DNA from: Mesorhizobium sp. 113-3-3
GTDB lineage: Bacteria > Pseudomonadota > Alphaproteobacteria > Rhizobiales > Rhizobiaceae
Assembly (NCBI RefSeq): GCF_016756495.1
Contig: NZ_AP023244.1
Location: 248,001-312,000, forward strand
Length of the DNA: 64,000 nucleotides
Direction: 5' to 3'
The notes under the pieces were generated by a model. That model ran no database searches, was not told where the DNA came from, and saw only the letters and a list, made by a program, of their open reading frames with translations. Of the stretch, positions 36,073 to 44,159 are shown one piece after another. Numbering within the stretch: the first letter of the stretch is position 1; each line of letters begins with the position of its first letter. The position numbers were made by a program, and so were the translations under genes.

Positions 36073-36242
36073 CAGACCCCCTCCCCGCGTCCAGCCTGCG
36101 CGGCATTGGAAAGGATACGGATGGCTGTGGTGATGCTGCCGGTCTCACACGCGGCCTCGGCATAAGCGGAGAGCGGGAACGCGCCGGTGAAGAAGATGTC
36201 GCGCTCGTGGTGATGGTTTCCTGAGAAGTCTCCTTCACTCAA
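36072..36242 (-). CDS. very small protein between DUF932 and its neighbours
   Basis: About 56 residues if read from the TTG at 36242, which overlaps the DUF932 stop. Contains HHHERDIFFTGAFPLSAYAE and AACETGSITTAIRILSNAAQ, clearly protein-like. A GAAGGAG ribosome site lies just inside this frame, so the true start may be a lost or unusual codon. ATGA overlap with the downstream gene. Confidence 0.45.
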   Translation of the reverse strand: MSEGDFSGNHHHERDIFFTGAFPLSAYAEAACETGSITTAIRILSNAAQAGRGEGV

Positions 36243-36608
36243 TTGATCGCGCCGACACGGCGCACCCAGAGGTTGCGATTCTGGCACACTGCACGAAGAT
36301 AAAAGCCTGCGATTCCAAGTGTCCTGGCGCCGACTTCCGAGTTCCAACAGTAGAAGCCGTGGAAGAAGAGATCAGGTTCACCGTTCGGAAGCTTTCCGGC
36401 CTCAATCGGATTGAGATCGTCGACCAGAAAGAGAAAGACATCACGATCGGATGCATAAAGCGTCGTCGTATCTTTCGAGATGTCGACATTGGGATTGTAG
36501 ATTCCCGTCGACCAATCGAGCACGCCGGGCGTTTTCCAGCGTGTGTCCCCGGTCCCGTTGCCGGCGATCTTCTGCACGGCCTCGACCAGTTCGTGGTCGA
36601 AAATTCTC
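36239..36608 (-). pseudogene. 3' part of a DUF932 gene cut by a transposon
   Basis: Reads RIFDHELVEAVQKIAGNGTG, then YASDRDVFLFLVDDLNPIEA and FFHGFYCWNSEVGARTLGIA, the C-terminal core of DUF932 proteins (phage/plasmid proteins, some linked to antirestriction). The reading frame enters straight from the transposon end. Its missing 5' part is at 43529-44004; the two pieces add up to 846 bases, exactly 282 codons with the stop. Confidence 0.88.
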
Positions 36609-36621
36609 CCGTTATCCAGAC
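36609..36621 (+). repeat. left terminal inverted repeat of the transposon
   Basis: CCGTTATCCAGAC; matches the right end at 11 of 13 bases. The outermost 8 bases (CCGTTATC) are identical. Confidence 0.75.
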
Positions 36622-36706
36622 TCTGTGTACCTGTCTTACAGACGTCAGGGTTGGCGCTTAGTATCGCTGACAGTCAGACAGATAGAATCGTCGAGTGATG
36701 CCGGTG

Positions 36707-36756
36707 CGAAGTTTTTGCCGGGGGCGGGCTCGAGCCCGTCCCCGGCAAAAACTTCG
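36707..36756. promoter_or_regulatory. 50-bp near-perfect palindrome before the first recombinase
   Basis: Arms of 17 bp (CGAAGTTTTTGCCGGGG and its complement) surround a 14-bp palindrome CGGGCTCGAGCCCG; only one base pair in the whole 50 bp fails, and that would be a G-U pair in RNA. It ends 18 bases before the TTG start of intA, covering the leader just before its ribosome site. Possible attenuator, operator or recombinase-binding site. Confidence 0.7.
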
Positions 36757-36774
36757 GCGCCGTTGGGAGGTCCT

Positions 36775-38235
36775 TTGCCGCAGGTATTCTTTACCGATCT
36801 TTGCGCCGTGCACCGCTCCGTGACGGTCCACGGCACGACATACGAGTTGTCCTCAGACGAGATAGCGGCCGCGGACAACGTCGGCCTCATTGAGGGCATG
36901 CCGTTCATTCCGGGAAGCGACGGCGCCTACGATCACCACCTCAACCGTTTCCTCCGATCGTGCCCGATCATGGGCGTGCGCTCGATGAACAGCCTTCGCG
37001 CCTATGCGCGGGACGTCGTCGTCTGGATGCGCTTCCTCGAAGAGCGGCGGAATGGCAAGTCTCTCTGGTCAGCCGATCGCGATGATATCGCCGCATTCCA
37101 CGACGCCCGGCGCATGTCCGAACCGCCGTTCCGGATATCGGCCTCATCCTGGAACCGGATGATCGCGGCGCTCGATAAGCTTTATCGGTGGGCAGTCGAT
37201 GAGAAGATCATTGCCGCCGCTCCGTTCACCTATCGGCAGCTCTGGTCCCGCGCATCAGCGTCAGGTGCGGTCATCGCCATGGCGGTGAACTGCGCCAAGG
37301 AAAGCGGAGCCCGCAATGGCGACATGCGCTTCCTCGACATGCCGCGCTATCTGGCATTCCGCGATGTCGGGCTGCGCGGCAGGCTTCCGGATGGCAGGGA
37401 AGACCCGACATGGCGAGGCCGCAATGGAGAGCGCAATGCGCTGTTCGCGGAACTGCTGATCACGACCGCCCTGCGGTTGCAGGAAGCCTCAAGCTTGCTG
37501 CTGAGCGAACTGCCGGAACTGAACGTGCACCTGGACACCACTGCTCGATCGCTGCCCTTCCGACTGGCGGCTGCGACCGCAAAGGGCTCGCGCGGTCGGG
37601 ACATCCGCATGCCGATCCGTCTGATCGGGCAGTTGCACGACTACGTCCGGATCGAACGGCACAACGCGCTTGGGCGAGTTCGGCGGAGGGGTCGCATCCG
37701 CCAGCGTAGCCCGATCCCGGTTGTCGCATGCGAGCACCGTGCCCTTCACCTGAGCGATGGCGACCGCGCCTTGAAGATAAGCGTCGATCAGTTGACGCCG
37801 TCGGAGCGGACGCGCCTTGTCGACGCCGAGACGGGCGTGCCGCTGGCGCTCTGGCTGACAGAAGACGGGGAGCCGATGCCGATGGCGTCGTGGGAGGCCG
37901 TGTTCGGACGCGCCAGCGAGAGATGCCGTCGCCTCGGCTTCACGGATATGCACGTGACCCCTCACATGCTGCGACACAGCTTTGCCGTCCACATGCTGAC
38001 GCTGCTTCTGCGTGAGCAGGTCGCCTGGGTGGTCAGCGAGCGATCGCGGCATCTCGGCTCCGCCTATCGTCGAATGATTGGTGATCCTCTGCTGAAGCTC
38101 CAAAGATTGATGGGGCATAGCAGAATCGAGAGCACCTACATCTATCTCGATCACCTCGCAGATAGCCAGGAGATCGTCGATGCGGCGGGGGGCAACCTTG
38201 GTCTCGACGTGACCTCCGGGGAACTCGCGTCATGA
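36775..38235 (+). CDS. tyrosine recombinase A of the trio
   Basis: 486 residues from the TTG at 36775, which has GGGAGG 4 bases upstream; the open frame continues left beyond the transposon end, so earlier starts are rejected. Catalytic residues: Arg in TALRLQEAS (about 234), HxxRH in TPHMLRHSF (about 397-401), His in RLMGHS (about 448) and Tyr in STYIYL (455 or 457). The N-terminal half carries the SAM-like core-binding region. Overlaps the next gene as ATGA, so the trio is translationally coupled. Confidence 0.9.
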   Translation: MPQVFFTDLCAVHRSVTVHGTTYELSSDEIAAADNVGLIEGMPFIPGSDGAYDHHLNRFLRSCPIMGVRSMNSLRAYARDVVVWMRFLEERRNGKSLWSADRDDIAAFHDARRMSEPPFRISASSWNRMIAALDKLYRWAVDEKIIAAAPFTYRQLWSRASASGAVIAMAVNCAKESGARNGDMRFLDMPRYLAFRDVGLRGRLPDGREDPTWRGRNGERNALFAELLITTALRLQEASSLLLSELPELNVHLDTTARSLPFRLAAATAKGSRGRDIRMPIRLIGQLHDYVRIERHNALGRVRRRGRIRQRSPIPVVACEHRALHLSDGDRALKISVDQLTPSERTRLVDAETGVPLALWLTEDGEPMPMASWEAVFGRASERCRRLGFTDMHVTPHMLRHSFAVHMLTLLLREQVAWVVSERSRHLGSAYRRMIGDPLLKLQRLMGHSRIESTYIYLDHLADSQEIVDAAGGNLGLDVTSGELAS

Positions 38236-39785
38236 GCCGGGGGCGACGGGCAACATTCCCGCCGCAGCCGGAGGCTCCGGATAAGAGCACCGTTACCGCC
38301 GTGATCGTCGCCGATCCCCGCCGCTTCGCTGTGCGCGTCGATACGGGCGGCGAGATCATCGTCGACCTGAGTTCCTGGTCGAACCCCTCCTTCGTTGCCG
38401 AGATCGCCCCGCTGATGCGGGAACGCATCCGCCAGATGGGCCCGACGCCGATCGGACGTTCGGTGCAGCGCAAGGTGCTCAATCTCCGCCGGTTCTGGTC
38501 GTTCCTGGATGATCGGAAGATCGTCCCGCACGGATTGGGCGACATCACCGTCGAGTTGATCAACGATTATGAGACGTGGCTCGAACAGAATGCCGGGAGC
38601 CGACTATTCCAAAGGCACCTTCTGGCGGCGCTGATCAGCGTGCTGCGCATCGCGGTCGAGGACCGTCCCGGCGCGCTGACCCCGGACGTCGTGTCCCGCC
38701 TGCGCTATCTCGGTCATGGCGACAGTGGGGGCAGCCGGCCCCGCGACGCCTATAGCAGCGGGATCGCCGAGGCACTACGTGCGGCGGCACGAGCTCAGAT
38801 CATCGAGGCTCGTCAGCGCATCGCGCTCGGCGACGACGTTCCGCTGCCGCCGCCGGGAATGGATACATGCGCGCGGCTGCGCGTACATCATGATGTCGTC
38901 ATCGCCGAGATCGTGCGATCCGGACAGATCGAGACGCGGCACCCTGCCTTCAAGCGCTTCGTCAATCTCGCTGCCTACCGCAAGGTCGATCGCAGAATCG
39001 AAGTGCCGCATCGCGGGTTCCACCTCACGCCGATCGACCTTGCGGCGTTCATGACCCTGCTGTCGCTGGAGACGGGCATGGAGATGGAATGCCTGGTCCG
39101 CCTGAAGGCCGACTGCCTGCGCAATCCCACCAAGGGCTATGTCGAGATCGAGTATTACAAACGCCGGGCACGGGGCTCGGAGTGGAAGCGTCTGCGAGTT
39201 CGGGACGGGTCGAGCGCCACGCCCGGCGGGCTGGTCAGAATGGCGATCGCGCTCACCGAACGCGCTCGGCGTCACACTGGGTCGGATCGTCTGTGGGTAC
39301 TCTGGACTATCGACGGCCTGCGCCCGGCCAACGAAGAAGGCGGCCAGGGCATCGCCACCTTCGTCGATCGCTACCACCTGGTCGATGACGATGGCGCGCC
39401 GCTGCGGCTGCGACTGTCGCGGTTGCGCAAGACCCACAAGGCCGAATGGTATCGACGCACGAACGGCCAGCTCGAGCAGTTCGCCGTCGGTCACTCGATC
39501 GGCGTCGCAGCCCGTCATTATGCGGACATACCCGCCCTTCGTCATGTTCACGAGCAAACCTTGGCCGCCGCGTTCCACGATGCTCTCGACGCTGCGCTGA
39601 AGCCGCGCATCGCCACGAGCGAGCGGAAAGACCTTGTCGTGGAGCGGCAAGAGCCGCCTCCGGCGACAGAGGAACAGGATGTCTGGCTCGCGCGATGCGG
39701 CGGCTTTTACGAGAGCCTGTTCACGGAAGCTGGCAAACCCTGCCCGACCCCGTTCTGGGGCGCCTCGAATGCGAGAATGCCGTGA
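38232..39785 (+). CDS. tyrosine recombinase B of the trio (frameshifted near its end)
   Basis: 517 residues as it stands. The recombinase domain shows RLRKTHKAEWYRR and VGHSIGVAARHYADIP with the C-terminal His and Tyr; the usual first Arg motif reads TGMEMEC, so that position is atypical. The frame ends NARMP at 39785, but the +2 frame continues from about 39761 as LECENAVITERKLPALIAF to 40009, where it overlaps recombinase C as ATGA. One missing base near 39760 (in PFWG, before CLEC-like) explains this. Either a real inactivation or a sequencing error. Confidence 0.85.
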   Translation: MSRGRRATFPPQPEAPDKSTVTAVIVADPRRFAVRVDTGGEIIVDLSSWSNPSFVAEIAPLMRERIRQMGPTPIGRSVQRKVLNLRRFWSFLDDRKIVPHGLGDITVELINDYETWLEQNAGSRLFQRHLLAALISVLRIAVEDRPGALTPDVVSRLRYLGHGDSGGSRPRDAYSSGIAEALRAAARAQIIEARQRIALGDDVPLPPPGMDTCARLRVHHDVVIAEIVRSGQIETRHPAFKRFVNLAAYRKVDRRIEVPHRGFHLTPIDLAAFMTLLSLETGMEMECLVRLKADCLRNPTKGYVEIEYYKRRARGSEWKRLRVRDGSSATPGGLVRMAIALTERARRHTGSDRLWVLWTIDGLRPANEEGGQGIATFVDRYHLVDDDGAPLRLRLSRLRKTHKAEWYRRTNGQLEQFAVGHSIGVAARHYADIPALRHVHEQTLAAAFHDALDAALKPRIATSERKDLVVERQEPPPATEEQDVWLARCGGFYESLFTEAGKPCPTPFWGASNARMP

Positions 39786-40009
39786 TCACCGAGCGCAAGC
39801 TGCCGGCGCTCATCGCATTCCAGTCCTTCATGACCGATCAGCGCGCCGTCCTCGACGCCGCCGAGTGGTCGATCAAGTTTGGCCGCCCCTGGCATCGTAT
39901 CACGAAGCAGATCCTGCCCGCCTTTGCGCCGCAGGCCGTTGAAGCGGCACGGATCGCGGAGCAAGGGCCGACGGTCCTTTATCTACCGGTGGAGGCGACG
40001 GCACGATGA
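39761..40009 (+). pseudogene. detached C-terminus of recombinase B
   Basis: About 82 residues in the frame shifted relative to the main gene: LECENAVITERKLPALIAFQ, FMTDQRAVLDAAEWSIKFGR and ITKQILPAFAPQAVEAARIA. It ends in the ATGA overlap with recombinase C, which is where an intact recombinase B should stop. The cysteines around the break (CPTPFWG and LECEN) look like a zinc-binding end. Confidence 0.75.
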
Positions 40010-42147
40010 CGGCGCTCAACAGCGCGCAGGCTACAGGCCCATCGGCGATACGCAGCCCCAGCGACATCGTGCTCTGCTCGATGAAGCTCAAGGACGGGAC
40101 CGATCGGAACACGCTCTCGCGCTTCGGCGACGACGTATGGGATCTCGATCCGGTAATCTTCCATGTGACTGCGCGCAATGCCTTCCGAACGATCGACTTC
40201 ACCGATATTGCCTGCCCGGTGGAGCGGGTGACGGCCAAGGAATACATCTTCGCCTGGCTCAACGAACGCCTGCCGGACCGCTCGGGACGGCTGCGGCCGT
40301 TGAGCGCGCGGGCAGCGCTTGCCACCCTGCGCCAGTTCATGGCGTTCGTTCGGGAACGAGAGGGCCGGTTCGATGCCGCGCTCATCGATCAGGATCTGCT
40401 CGACGCTTACCTCGCTCTCCAGAAGAACCGTTCCGTGTTGCCGACCCGGGTTGGCGCCTGCCTCAGACCGGCCGTTCAGCTTCATCGGCTGGCCCGCTTC
40501 CTGACCCATGGTGGCCTCGACTTCGTGCCCTGGAACGGAACGCCGATCTTCAAGGTAGCCGGCTGCGGCGGCCGACCATATGAGAACATGACGCCACGCA
40601 TTCCCGAGCCGGTGATCGGCGGATTGCTCCGCTGGTCGCTGCGCTATGTCGAGCTGTTCTCGACCGATATCCTCGCTGCTCGCGACGAACTCGATTCCCT
40701 CGAGGCCGCCTATGCAGCGCGCCCGCGCTATGCCCGGCGCGGCAGCGTCGAAGGGCGGCTGGCGGACTGGATCGAGCGGCGACGTCAAGCGGAACGAGGC
40801 ATTCCCGTCTGGAACGAGCCCGAGCGCATGGGTGGCATCTGTGGTGCGATCGCGCTCGACCAGCGGCTGGATGGCCATGTCCTGAACATCCGGCTGATCT
40901 CGTTGCAAAGCGGCGTGCATCCCACCAACCTCATCCAGAACAAGACGGCCTATGGCCTGCTTCTCGACGCTGTGAAGGAACTCGGCGTCGAGCCAGGCGG
41001 CATGGACACACCGATCTCCAACGATCCCGAGAGCGGCCAGCCATGGCGGTCGCGCTTCGATGCTTTTGTGCTGGCGCACGAGGAACGCCAGCTTCAGACC
41101 GCCGCCTACATCCTGTGCGCCTATTTGACCGGCATGCGCGACAGTGAAGTTCAGGCCATGCAACCCGGTTGCCTTCAACGCAGGCGCAGCGCCGACGGCA
41201 TGATCGAACGGCTGACAATACGCAGCGTCGTCTACAAGGGTCGGCAGGAGCGCGGAGACCCGGAGGAATGGGTGACGATCGAGCCGGTCGGCCGCGCCGT
41301 GGAGATTGCCGAACATCTGGCGGCAAGGCATAGGCCATGGCGCAAGGACGACGGCATCTGGATCGTTCTGCATCGCGCCGTTGCGCTCGATCGCGGCGTG
41401 CCCCATGTGGTGCGGCAGATCAATCGGTATCGCGAGCATCTGGACGAGCACTTCGGCGCGCCGGATGAGCCGACAATCCCGCTTGTTGAAGGACGGAATT
41501 GGATCTTCAACACACGGCAGTTCCGCCGAACCGTGGCATGGTATATCGCCAACCGGCCATTCGGAGTGGTCGCCGGCAAGATCCAGTACAAGCATGCCTC
41601 TGTCGCAATGTTCGACGGCTATGCCGGATCATCGGCTTCCGGCTTCCGTCAGGAGGTGGAGCAAGAACATTATCTGGGACAGCTCGACGACATCGTTGCG
41701 CACTACGAAGCGGCGCAGCGTGGCGAACGACTGGCCGGCCCCGGCGCTTCCCGCGTCACGCACGAGATGGACCGTGCCGCCCGGGAGGTCGGTCCTCTGC
41801 CAGGAACGATCGCAGACGGCAAACGGGTGAAGGCGATGCTTGCTCACCTCGCGCGCACGCTGCACGTCGGCTACCTGAACGACTGCTTCTTCGAGCCAGC
41901 GACCGCGCTTTGTCTTGGCCGGTCGACAGGTTCGGAGAGCCAGCCCATCCTGTCGAACTGCGCCCCTGACCGCTGCCCGAACTCCTGCATTGCCCGTCGT
42001 CATCTGCCGCCATGGCAGGCCGCAATCGCTCACGCCGAGGCGATGCTGGAAGAGAAGAGATTGTCGAACGTGCAGCGAACCGCGATCCGGCAGGACCGGG
42101 ACCGAATGCGCAAGCTGATAGCGCCGCTGCTGGAGGAACGCTCGTGA
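40006..42147 (+). CDS. tyrosine recombinase C of the trio (large, Tn554 TnpB-like)
   Basis: 713 residues. Catalytic features: Arg in YLTGMRDSEVQAM, RQFRRTVAWYI in the HxxR position, and KHASVAMFDGYAG with the Tyr. The last 120 residues carry a Cys-rich tail (NCAPDRCPNSCI) typical of the large recombinase of Tn554-like sets. Coupled by 4-base overlaps to its neighbours on both sides (GTGA with the small gene downstream). Confidence 0.9.
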   Translation: MTALNSAQATGPSAIRSPSDIVLCSMKLKDGTDRNTLSRFGDDVWDLDPVIFHVTARNAFRTIDFTDIACPVERVTAKEYIFAWLNERLPDRSGRLRPLSARAALATLRQFMAFVREREGRFDAALIDQDLLDAYLALQKNRSVLPTRVGACLRPAVQLHRLARFLTHGGLDFVPWNGTPIFKVAGCGGRPYENMTPRIPEPVIGGLLRWSLRYVELFSTDILAARDELDSLEAAYAARPRYARRGSVEGRLADWIERRRQAERGIPVWNEPERMGGICGAIALDQRLDGHVLNIRLISLQSGVHPTNLIQNKTAYGLLLDAVKELGVEPGGMDTPISNDPESGQPWRSRFDAFVLAHEERQLQTAAYILCAYLTGMRDSEVQAMQPGCLQRRRSADGMIERLTIRSVVYKGRQERGDPEEWVTIEPVGRAVEIAEHLAARHRPWRKDDGIWIVLHRAVALDRGVPHVVRQINRYREHLDEHFGAPDEPTIPLVEGRNWIFNTRQFRRTVAWYIANRPFGVVAGKIQYKHASVAMFDGYAGSSASGFRQEVEQEHYLGQLDDIVAHYEAAQRGERLAGPGASRVTHEMDRAAREVGPLPGTIADGKRVKAMLAHLARTLHVGYLNDCFFEPATALCLGRSTGSESQPILSNCAPDRCPNSCIARRHLPPWQAAIAHAEAMLEEKRLSNVQRTAIRQDRDRMRKLIAPLLEERS

Positions 42148-42509
42148 AGCCTGTCAGCACTTCAACAGAGGGAGCGCTTCGCGAAGCGCTCACCCGTCTT
42201 GTCTCAGGGAATGCGTTCAGGTCGGAGGGCCGCCTGACGGTTGCCGATCTGGCACGGGAAGCCGGCGTCAGCCGCGCAACCGCGAACCGTGCTCCAGCCA
42301 TACTCGCAGAACTGCGGGAGGCGGCCGAGGCGGCGAAGCTGTGCCGGCTCGAGGAGCCCCGCCCCTCGCAGATTGACGTGGAGCGGCAGCGGCGTGATCG
42401 GGAGAATGTGATCGCCCAGCACGTCCAGGTTCGCGCTTTGCTACAACGCGCCGACGAGAACAGGAGAAGCAAGGTGGCCCGCCTCCGTCTCATCGGTGAC
42501 GTTGGATGA
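42144..42509 (+). CDS. DUF6262/TnpC-like small transposition protein
   Basis: 121 residues from a GTG at 42144 overlapping the previous stop as GTGA. A helix-turn-helix (RLTVADLAREAGVSRATANR) is followed by a charged helix (DVERQRRDRENVIAQHV), the layout of the small fourth gene in Tn554-type recombinase sets, where it affects the efficiency or orientation of insertion. The end overlaps the 3' end of ardC on the other strand by 69 bases. Confidence 0.8.
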   Translation: MKPVSTSTEGALREALTRLVSGNAFRSEGRLTVADLAREAGVSRATANRAPAILAELREAAEAAKLCRLEEPRPSQIDVERQRRDRENVIAQHVQVRALLQRADENRRSKVARLRLIGDVG

Positions 42510-43400
42510 CGCGGGCGCAGGTTGCTGTTCATGCATCCAATCGGCTGCCTGCTGGGCTTTGCCGGCAGCCGTGAAGATGGCGCGGGGATCCTCCTTCAAT
42601 ACTTTGATCCACGAGGCAATGTACGCGGCATGATCAGGGCGCGGATGGTGGGCGATGCCGAGATCGGCAAGCACAAGCCCGCTGAGAATCTCCACGCAGC
42701 ACTCCTCGGCCGCGTAGGCAGCCGAGCCGAACCGGCCCGAGAGATCACGGTCCAGCCTGTGCTTTGCCCCGGAGGCGTGGCCGTTCTCATGCAGCCAGAC
42801 CCCGTAGAACGACGCGGCATCCCGGAAAGAAGCGAAGTCCGGCATGAACACCGTGTCCGAGGAAGGAACGTAGCAGGCTTCCGAACCGCCGAACACGGTC
42901 TTGATCCCGAGGTTGGCGATGAAGGCCTCGGCGTGAGCCAGACGTTCTTCCTCCGGCAAGATGCTCGTTGGCGGACGTTCGTATCCATCCACCTGCGCGA
43001 TGTTGAACACCGAGAAGGCTCGGGCGAACATCCGAACACGGCCGCTGTCGTCGCCATCATCGTCATCCGCCGAGTCGGACGAAGCGATCTGCTTCCACAG
43101 CACGACGGTGGTCGAGCGTTCGCCCTTGCGCACCTGCGCTCCGGCGTCCTGCCATTGCCGATAGGTGCCCCATAGGCCATCGCCGTAACCGTTGGCCATG
43201 GCTGCGACCCACAGTGCCACCGTGTTGATACCGCGGTAGCGCCTGTCCGATGCGACGTTGGTCGGGCGGGCGGCGCTGGTTCCGTTGTGGAACCAGGGCG
43301 CGCGCCAATCACCTGCACCTTCTTCGATTGCCGCTATGATCTCGGCGGTGATGCGCGTGTAAACGTCGGCGCGCGCTCCGGACTGTATCCTGGTAGACAT
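42441..43400 (-). CDS. ardC: ArdC-type antirestriction protein (zincin metalloprotease-like)
   Basis: 319 residues from the ATG at 43400 behind AAGGAGC. The N-terminal ssDNA-binding domain has DWRAPWFHNGTSAARPTNV and YRGINTVALWVAAM; the C-terminal domain has YGVWLHENGHASGAKHRLDR, where HENGH sits in the HExxH-like site, and YAAEECCVEILSGLVLADLG supplies a third ligand. ArdC proteins protect incoming single-stranded plasmid DNA against host restriction. Here it lies inside the transposon, as cargo. Its last 20 residues run past the usual end and overlap the TnpC-like gene. Confidence 0.9.
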   Translation of the reverse strand: MSTRIQSGARADVYTRITAEIIAAIEEGAGDWRAPWFHNGTSAARPTNVASDRRYRGINTVALWVAAMANGYGDGLWGTYRQWQDAGAQVRKGERSTTVVLWKQIASSDSADDDDGDDSGRVRMFARAFSVFNIAQVDGYERPPTSILPEEERLAHAEAFIANLGIKTVFGGSEACYVPSSDTVFMPDFASFRDAASFYGVWLHENGHASGAKHRLDRDLSGRFGSAAYAAEECCVEILSGLVLADLGIAHHPRPDHAAYIASWIKVLKEDPRAIFTAAGKAQQAADWMHEQQPAPASSNVTDETEAGHLASPVLVGAL

Positions 43401-43515
43401 CGTGATAGCTCCTTGGGAGCGACGCAAGCGCACGAGATCGCCACCGCTCGCGGGCAGCGTCGGGCGCAACGTCGGTGGAATGGGATCAGTGAAAAGCTGG
43501 TGAGACAGCTTGACT

Positions 43516-43528
43516 GTTTAGATAACGG
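43516..43528 (-). repeat. right terminal inverted repeat of the transposon
   Basis: GTTTAGATAACGG on the + strand; its complement CCGTTATCTAAAC matches the left end. Confidence 0.75.
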
Positions 43529-44004
43529 CCATAATCCGGACCCGTAACCGCTCGCAGTTCGAGGCGGCCGTTCTCAATCTCGAGCGTTTTGACCTGCTCT
43601 GCCCGTTGTGAGGTCAGGCCGTACTGCAGATTGATCGCTGCCAGCGGGGCCGGGAGCTGGCGCAGATAGGTGGCCGGCGCGCCGACCAGGCTGGCAAGCT
43701 GACCAAAACTCCAGTGTGTGGGCGCAACCGGTGCCTCCGCGTCTGGCAGCATGAGCGTGAGACGTTCCGCGTCGTTGCGACTGGCTTCAACGCGGATACG
43801 TTCGCTTTCGACGATGCGCGTACGGCTGCGCTGGGACCGGGCTTTCACCGAATTCCAGAGGTCGCTGAGGGACAGGTATCGCTCGTCGGCCGGGCGGTTG
43901 AACCATTCCGAAGACACGCGGCCGATACGCTGGCCGCGGCTCACATCCACCTTATAGCCTGCCCGCATGTTCCGCGTTGGCGATTGAATTTCCATCTGTG
44001 TCAT
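43529..44004 (-). pseudogene. 5' part of the interrupted DUF932 gene
   Basis: 158 codons from the ATG at 44004 (CGGAGC site upstream) to the transposon end: THWSFGQLASLVGAPATYLR, then NLQYGLTSQRAEQVKTLEIE and ELRAVTGPDYGR, the N-terminal core of DUF932. Within the transposon the frame adds a short foreign tail (YLNSQAVSPAFH) and stops at 43486. A truncated protein of about 172 residues could still be made. Confidence 0.88.
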
Positions 44005-44025
44005 GGGTTTGCTCCGCGGCGGACG

Positions 44026-44044
44026 CCGGGAGCCTCTCTCCCGG
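44026..44044 (-). promoter_or_regulatory. AGAGG-loop hairpin in the DUF932 leader
   Basis: On the - strand CCGGGAG-AGAGG-CTCCCGG, 21 bases before the ATG, behind GCAGAGGAAGAGGG as in the Strawberry-notch leader. Confidence 0.5.
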
Positions 44045-44159
44045 ACCTGCGACCGCCACCGCAAGCCCCGCCTGCCCTCTTCCTCTGCTGGCCGGTCCGC
44101 CGCGCTGACGCGTCCGTCATTCCGTCAAGGGCGCGCCGACTTGCTTCGATGGCAAAACT

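Follow-up and report, generated by a model that had tools for sequence, protein, structure and literature searches.

The stretch of DNA considered here (the window: 64,000 nucleotides of Mesorhizobium sp. 113-3-3, contig NZ_AP023244.1, positions 248,001 to 312,000 of the forward strand) carries, between its own positions 36612 and 43525, an element that interrupts a plasmid gene of the DUF932 family. From one end to the other the element comprises a terminal motif (C), a hairpin, genes for a tyrosine recombinase (IntA), a Tfp-like protein, a large tyrosine recombinase (IntB) and a small helix-turn-helix (HTH) protein, then the anti-restriction gene ArdC as cargo and a second terminal motif (C′). 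It is very probably a 6.9-kb four-gene tyrosine-recombinase transposon of the type represented by strand-biased circularizing integrative elements (SEs, such as SE-6945 and SE-6283) and by GInts, belonging to an alphaproteobacterial family and moving by the mechanism proposed below. A preliminary description, made from the letters of the window, had located recombinase genes, similar ends and a split DUF932 gene at places where all of them are indeed found; what it took for a three-recombinase element has four recombination genes plus ArdC.

The interrupted DUF932 gene and the ends of the element

Pertinent evidence comes from plasmids with an uninterrupted DUF932 gene, alignment to which the preliminary description had proposed as a check. 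When 72,556 plasmids were searched by BLAST, one half of DUF932 matched 310 records and the other 297, and the best 60 of each, lists that favour intact genes, were compared. In all 25 records common to both best-60 lists the halves abut with a gap of 0, and the net insert in the window's gene is 6,920 bp, i.e. the element plus 6 bp, so that the precise insertion by a tyrosine-recombinase transposon envisaged earlier has held up. The closest empty site among the matches listed, on plasmid MesoLj131b2 of Mesorhizobium sp. 131-2-5 (L002, L numbers designating compared loci and records), is syntenic on both sides (92.9% identity over 47% of a 14.5-kb query), and the uninterrupted gene there encodes 398 amino acids. 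The point of insertion is a conserved codon stretch of DUF932, D-Y-G-R, and a related element is present at the identical point in Novosphingobium sp. PP1Y. Mesorhizobium NZP2077 (L003), in which ArdC adjoins DUF932, was considered as a second insertion and set aside because the DUF932 site is uninterrupted there.

The C motif (36612..36641, minus strand; TTATCCAGACTCTGTGTACCTGTCTTACAG on the plus strand, beginning TTATCC) is kept at the intA end of relatives, and the C′ motif (43500..43525, plus strand; GTGAGACAGCTTGACTGTTTAGATAA, ending in GATAA) at their cargo end. Their reported match in inverted order, 11 of 13 positions, was confirmed (chance about 1.1e-5 at fixed positions). Beyond each is a 6-bp hexamer to which no strand is assigned. 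That at attL (36606..36611; CTCCCG on the plus strand, CGGGAG in the DUF932 sense) is probably target-derived, with the hexamer and the next bases the same in the intact genes L087 and L089, and that at attR (43526..43531; CGGCCA on the plus strand, TGGCCG in the DUF932 sense), the 6 bp beyond C′, is variable among insertions. The borders drawn earlier thus keep their net length and lose their ends, since conserved sequence starts at 36612 and stops at 43525. Similarly, the junction rebuilt in the preliminary description, GAT TAT GGG AGA, is at the right site with the wrong sequence, two hexamers having been mixed and the T of TAT coming from that at attR; the form TAC GGG AG is intact in L002, L087 and L089. 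By sequence reading, the left end CCGTTATCCAG and the right flank CCATAATCCGG constitute an imperfect direct repeat (8/11). The element is single copy in its own genome. (In L013:6889-7059 two C′ ends are 149 bp apart, in a scaffold stretch with N, possibly an assembly artefact.)

Compared with the intact gene of Mesorhizobium sp. 131-2-5, the 5′ part of the window's gene (43532..44004, minus strand) is 95.5% identical over 464 bp and the second part (36266..36605, minus strand) 80.7% over 326 bp; across 36239-44004, the insertion point marks a drop in identity to MesoLj131b2, from about 95% to about 81%. The second part leads into a 52-bp 5′ remnant of a group II intron (36214..36265, minus strand) with zero differences from the start (GTGCG...) of an intron in Mesorhizobium sp. 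AR10. The AR10 intron, which has an RF00029 match (E 1.2e-10) and a reverse transcriptase/maturase open reading frame (ORF), splits DUF932 at the same codon as the window remnant, the AR10 DUF932 being itself broken. In the window, homology breaks off at about 36265; where it picks up again, about 795 bp of L002 are absent, a deletion, and the gene is missing its 3′ third. The 846 bases earlier equated with an intact gene of 282 codons are not such a gene, as the stop codon of that reading falls inside the intron remnant. The deletion beside the remnant extends, in L002 coordinates, into the neighbouring DUF2958 gene.

Recombination proteins and kinship

IntA (36775..38235, plus strand; 486 amino acids, TTG start) matches Pfam Phage_int_SAM_1 and Phage_integrase, and its catalytic R, H, R, H and Y are present in 29/29 aligned rows (rows here and below being the window plus loci passing a length filter, with shorter matches and identical sequences dropped). 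The Tfp-like gene (38232..39785, plus strand) has a first ORF of 517 amino acids that is frameshifted relative to relatives; the conserved tail lies in a different frame and extends to about 40009. The 594-amino-acid protein of L012 gives two high-scoring segment pairs in different frames, 38232-39764 and 39743-39994. E occupies the position of the first catalytic arginine (R-I) in 28/31 rows of this protein and R in 0/31, with R-II and Y in 31/31. Four cysteines near its C-terminus are invariant in 14/14 rows, which include both alphaproteobacterial and Pseudomonas-group proteins, and it is this motif that the window frameshift hits. IntB (40006..42147, plus strand; 713 amino acids) has R-I in 33/33 rows, R-II in 32/33, and H-III and Y in 31/33. 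Neither IntB nor the Tfp-like protein has a Pfam or NCBIfam match at 1e-3. The Srap/GinD-like small protein (42144..42509, plus strand; 121 amino acids, GTG start) overlaps the IntB stop, has HTH matches under the Pfam cut-offs and keeps its position in relatives. The cargo gene ArdC (42441..43400, minus strand; 319 amino acids; Pfam ArdcN 2.1e-41, MPTase-PolyVal 3.4e-45) has a homolog in 6/6 examined relatives at the same DUF932 site (L001, L012, L013, L014, L015 and L016).

In architecture the element comes closest to SEs; GInts are the other candidate. The gene order, IntA-Tfp-IntB-Srap, is that of SEs, protein sizes are similar (408, 581, 720 and 135 amino acids in SE-6945), and in SE-6945 too the cargo is on the opposite strand beside srap. 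Imperfect C/C′ repeats, 6-bp hexamers and chosen target genes are further likenesses, and the 11/13 match of the ends fits the imperfect inverted repeats of 13-19 bp in SEs. In a search of 19 proteins the IntB profile matched the IntB of SE-6945 and SE-6283 (E 1.2e-22 and 7.2e-17), together with proteins of Pseudomonas, Klebsiella and Alteromonas plasmids; a weak match of Srap to SE Srap (E 7e-5 and 0.0011) likewise comes from a search of 19 proteins. For the Tfp profile, the link to SE Tfp runs through a Pseudomonas/betaproteobacterial group, which it matches with a probability of 99.9 over 476 columns and which in turn matches SE Tfp with a probability of 93.7 over 473 columns. Direct BLAST of the window proteins against SE proteins gave no matches at E 1e-3, and in the IntB tree, where the window and L012 are grouped with support 100/99, the SE branches are long and their placement unsure. 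Differences from SEs are the location on alphaproteobacterial plasmids, the ArdC or mer cargo, the hairpin ahead of intA, the lack of a direct Tfp match and the weakness of the Srap match. The published host range of SEs is gammaproteobacterial, whereas the relatives of the window element are alphaproteobacterial, and a literature search turned up no alphaproteobacterial SE, which holds for that search only. The element is filed under neither heading, since its Tfp-like protein has no direct match to that of SEs and GInts were compared by description.

Membership of a RIT or Tn554-like set, as earlier suggested, can be rejected. RITs do resemble it in having inverted ends and three consecutive tyrosine-recombinase-like genes, but their proteins are of 315-410 amino acids, all with the catalytic Tyr, their repeats are of 34 bp and there is no fourth gene (PMC10214605). 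Sizes of 486, about 600 (the 517-amino-acid ORF here, 594 in L012) and 713 amino acids, a fourth gene and a second protein without R-I exclude the window element. Tn554, described in PMC10214605 as tnpABC with no Tfp counterpart, is excluded by gene content, four genes being present here with a Tfp-like one second.

Relatives, recent movement and the two hexamers

Scanning of genome contigs with the IntB alignment gathered 42 IntB loci. The same four-gene order (BLAST, 1e-3) is present in most of the alphaproteobacterial ones, in three that are actinobacterial (L035, L046, L049) and in one Gemmatimonadota metagenome-assembled genome (L042), and in the remaining loci one gene was missed by BLAST or the contig is cut. 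The closest relative is in Chelativorans multitrophicus (L012; IntB 91%). An IntB match is present in 12 of the 199 genomes of the window's family, and in five of the 12, its own included, it is nearly full length. A four-gene relative is also present on a Klebsiella pneumoniae IncN/IncR plasmid (L144:2235-7597; IntB 37% identity over 56% of length), and in L108:2592-15309 another DUF932 gene is interrupted at a second point (before R-A-E-Q) by a related element in reverse orientation, whose ArdC homolog is 59.5% identical.

One member, of 9,701 bp and with mercury-resistance cargo, is present in L017, L018, L019, L020 and L045, pairs of which differ by 1-4 bases; copies in five plasmid records differ from that of L017 at 1-4 positions. 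The flanks are common to L017, L020 and L143, whereas those of L018 and L045 are unlike that group and each other (ungapped identity 0.26-0.28 in 2 kb of left flank). The same 6,871-bp element, with 9 differences, is found in PP1Y and in Novosphingobium mathurense (L015), in DUF932 alleles only 75% alike in their second part. Near-identical copies in differing flanks show recent mobility, and the attR hexamer at one end may record the source of such copies. (In Sinorhizobium sp. M14 the plasmids pSinA and pSinB, records L140 and L141, both have an apparently complete copy of the 9,701-bp mer element, flanked by identical hexamers in the two, and contig L019:1-9706 is a single element from C to exactly five bases past C′, i.e. 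a circle or a collapsed multi-copy repeat.)

For SEs the rule is that 6 bp of the target are at attL and 6 bp of the donor at attR (PMC9345347, PMC10214605). Among 32 sources examined, 19 have both ends and amount to 17 distinct complete insertions, of which 11 have differing attL and attR hexamers. Ten insertions were tested against intact target genes, 31 of them DUF932 (at two positions) and 30 belonging to a second target, a small plasmid gene, the differing insertions L014, L015, L032 and L139 being outside this comparison. In three of the ten (L016, L018 and L033) the two hexamers are equal. For the seven differing insertions within it, attL fits the target clearly in three, the result is mixed in three and it is contrary in one. 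The clear cases are L012 (attL hexamer in 8/31 intact sites, attR hexamer in 0/31), the reversed insertion L108 at the second DUF932 point (5/31 and 0/31) and L017 (5/30 and 1/30, with the five nearest genes all closer to attL). In PP1Y and L015 the hexamers are swapped, PP1Y having CGGGCG at attL and TGGCCG at attR and L015 the reverse. Transfer of the donor attL hexamer would predict such a swap, though TGGCCG is common enough for a chance match.

Proposed mechanism and its alternatives

Our verdict is that the element works like an SE or GInt, with the gene order of SEs. Its overlapping genes would make IntA, a Tfp-like helper, IntB and the small HTH protein, and these four proteins, to judge from SE and GInt genetics, would join the C and C′ ends by recombination, giving a circle. 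A 6-bp crossover between circle and target would then follow, placed where a plasmid gene has a conserved run of codons, in this case D-Y-G-R of DUF932, where the site itself is seen; the target hexamer would tend to attL and the element-carried one to attR, as in SEs and Tn554, a tendency not uniform among the natural insertions compared. ArdC as cargo may ease spread from plasmid to plasmid. The window copy is itself probably immobile because its tfp ORF is frameshifted, and is probably a fossil.

Several observations weigh against this. The second catalytic histidine (H-II) of IntB is replaced by R in 28/33 rows (the SE criterion being an RHRY motif), direct profile comparison of the Tfp-like protein with SE Tfp gave no match (probability 1.1), and a search of 385 genomes of the class for the exact C′ motif found it in one, the element's own. 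Nor was any circle, excision or transposition observed. As to the hexamers, the window is one of the mixed cases (attL in 3/31 intact sites, attR in 9/31; three of its five nearest intact genes favour attL, and L087 and L089, with shared following bases, carry the exact attL form). So are L045 (either hexamer in 1/30; L115 and L116, the nearest genes, closer to attR, with L109, which has the same preceding bases, carrying the L045 attL form) and L022 (attL 2/30 vs attR 5/30), and PP1Y is contrary, with its attL hexamer in 0/31 and its attR hexamer in 9/31. By mean distance to all intact sites, attR is closer in five of the seven (window, L017, L045, L022 and PP1Y), which would also follow if the last donor were another copy of the same target gene.

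Mixed hexamer results are also what would be expected of a GInt, rather than an SE-like element, in which three integrases and GinD form a circle by 6-nt staggered cuts and heteroduplex repair in either direction leaves either hexamer on either side. GInts (ginABCD; PMC5385486) have the same number of recombination genes, 6-nt staggered cuts, chimeric att sites and site specificity, and their flanking imperfect direct repeats of 10-17 nt have a counterpart in the 8/11 repeat of left end and right flank here. The Pseudomonas/betaproteobacterial Tfp group, nearest outside Alphaproteobacteria, may consist of GInts; its named members include betaproteobacteria, a class for which the PMC10214605 survey lists GInts and, as for Alphaproteobacteria, no Tfp or Srap homologs. 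It is because of these members, and of the putative gin homologs and gin-like operons reported in Alphaproteobacteria (PMC5385486), that the possibility is given its weight. However, the protein without the first Arg is second here and third (GinC) in GInts, if the letters give gene order, cargo is about 1 kb here versus 2.5 to at least 70 kb, and the PMC10214605 survey gives no ginC-ginD blocks for Alphaproteobacteria. GInt membership is then plausible, if on the doubtful side.

That homologous recombination with another plasmid brought in the element along with some of DUF932, with no hop into the present plasmid, is unlikely. Identity to MesoLj131b2 of 95.5% before the site and 80.7% after it speaks in its favour, but the second DUF932 part is close to no other compared gene (best 82.1%) and the swap could instead be in MesoLj131b2. 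Highly improbable is a switch for DUF932, operated by excision of a conservative cut-and-paste element; the preliminary description had suggested such a switch, and the exact net insertion is in keeping with it. Excision could not restore the window's gene, because its 3′ end has been lost to the intron remnant and deletion; the frameshift in the second recombinase ORF counts against the switch too, as does the finding of no further DUF932 match elsewhere in the genome. No empty site is left behind by the SEs that have been examined in the laboratory (PMC10214605), though some GInts leave one.

Starting from the preferred reading, a four-gene transposon of SE or GInt type, a broader proposition can be put forward tentatively: that SE-type transposition extends beyond marine Gammaproteobacteria to a broad four-gene family in Alphaproteobacteria, Actinomycetota, betaproteobacteria and the plasmids of Pseudomonas and Klebsiella, homing to conserved codons of plasmid genes and with the attR hexamer as its previous address. 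If true, movements would be readable from genomes via attR hexamers. The element itself puts a little-studied, possibly copy-out, tyrosine-recombinase transposition in a class where the survey found neither SEs nor GInts (PMC10214605), despite the gin-like operons of PMC5385486. The family is a sequence bridge between groups called distinct, its natural insertions allow the 6-bp rule to be tested without experiment, and its members show that metal-resistance and anti-restriction cargo is carried by elements moving between plasmids.

The hairpin (36707..36756, plus strand; core GGGCTCGAGCCC), 18 nt ahead of the IntA start, is a near-perfect palindrome with compensatory changes in relatives, and the stretch has a folding energy of -62.5 kcal/mol (z -6.06). 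An intrinsic terminator was rejected, as by sequence reading no T run follows on either strand, and three Rfam matches on 36200-44100 are all below gathering score. Seven distinct hairpins have the core, with positions 1-20 paired in all seven, position 8 excepted, and in the eight loci with a located start and hairpin the distance to IntA is 16-19 nt; L005 and L027 have a 10-bp stem only, farther from IntA, and in five loci no IntA start was located. On the intA-sense strand the wobble-readable mismatches (window, L012, L016) take the form of G-U pairs, suggesting that the hairpin acts as RNA, and we infer a leader that insulates or tunes the operon.

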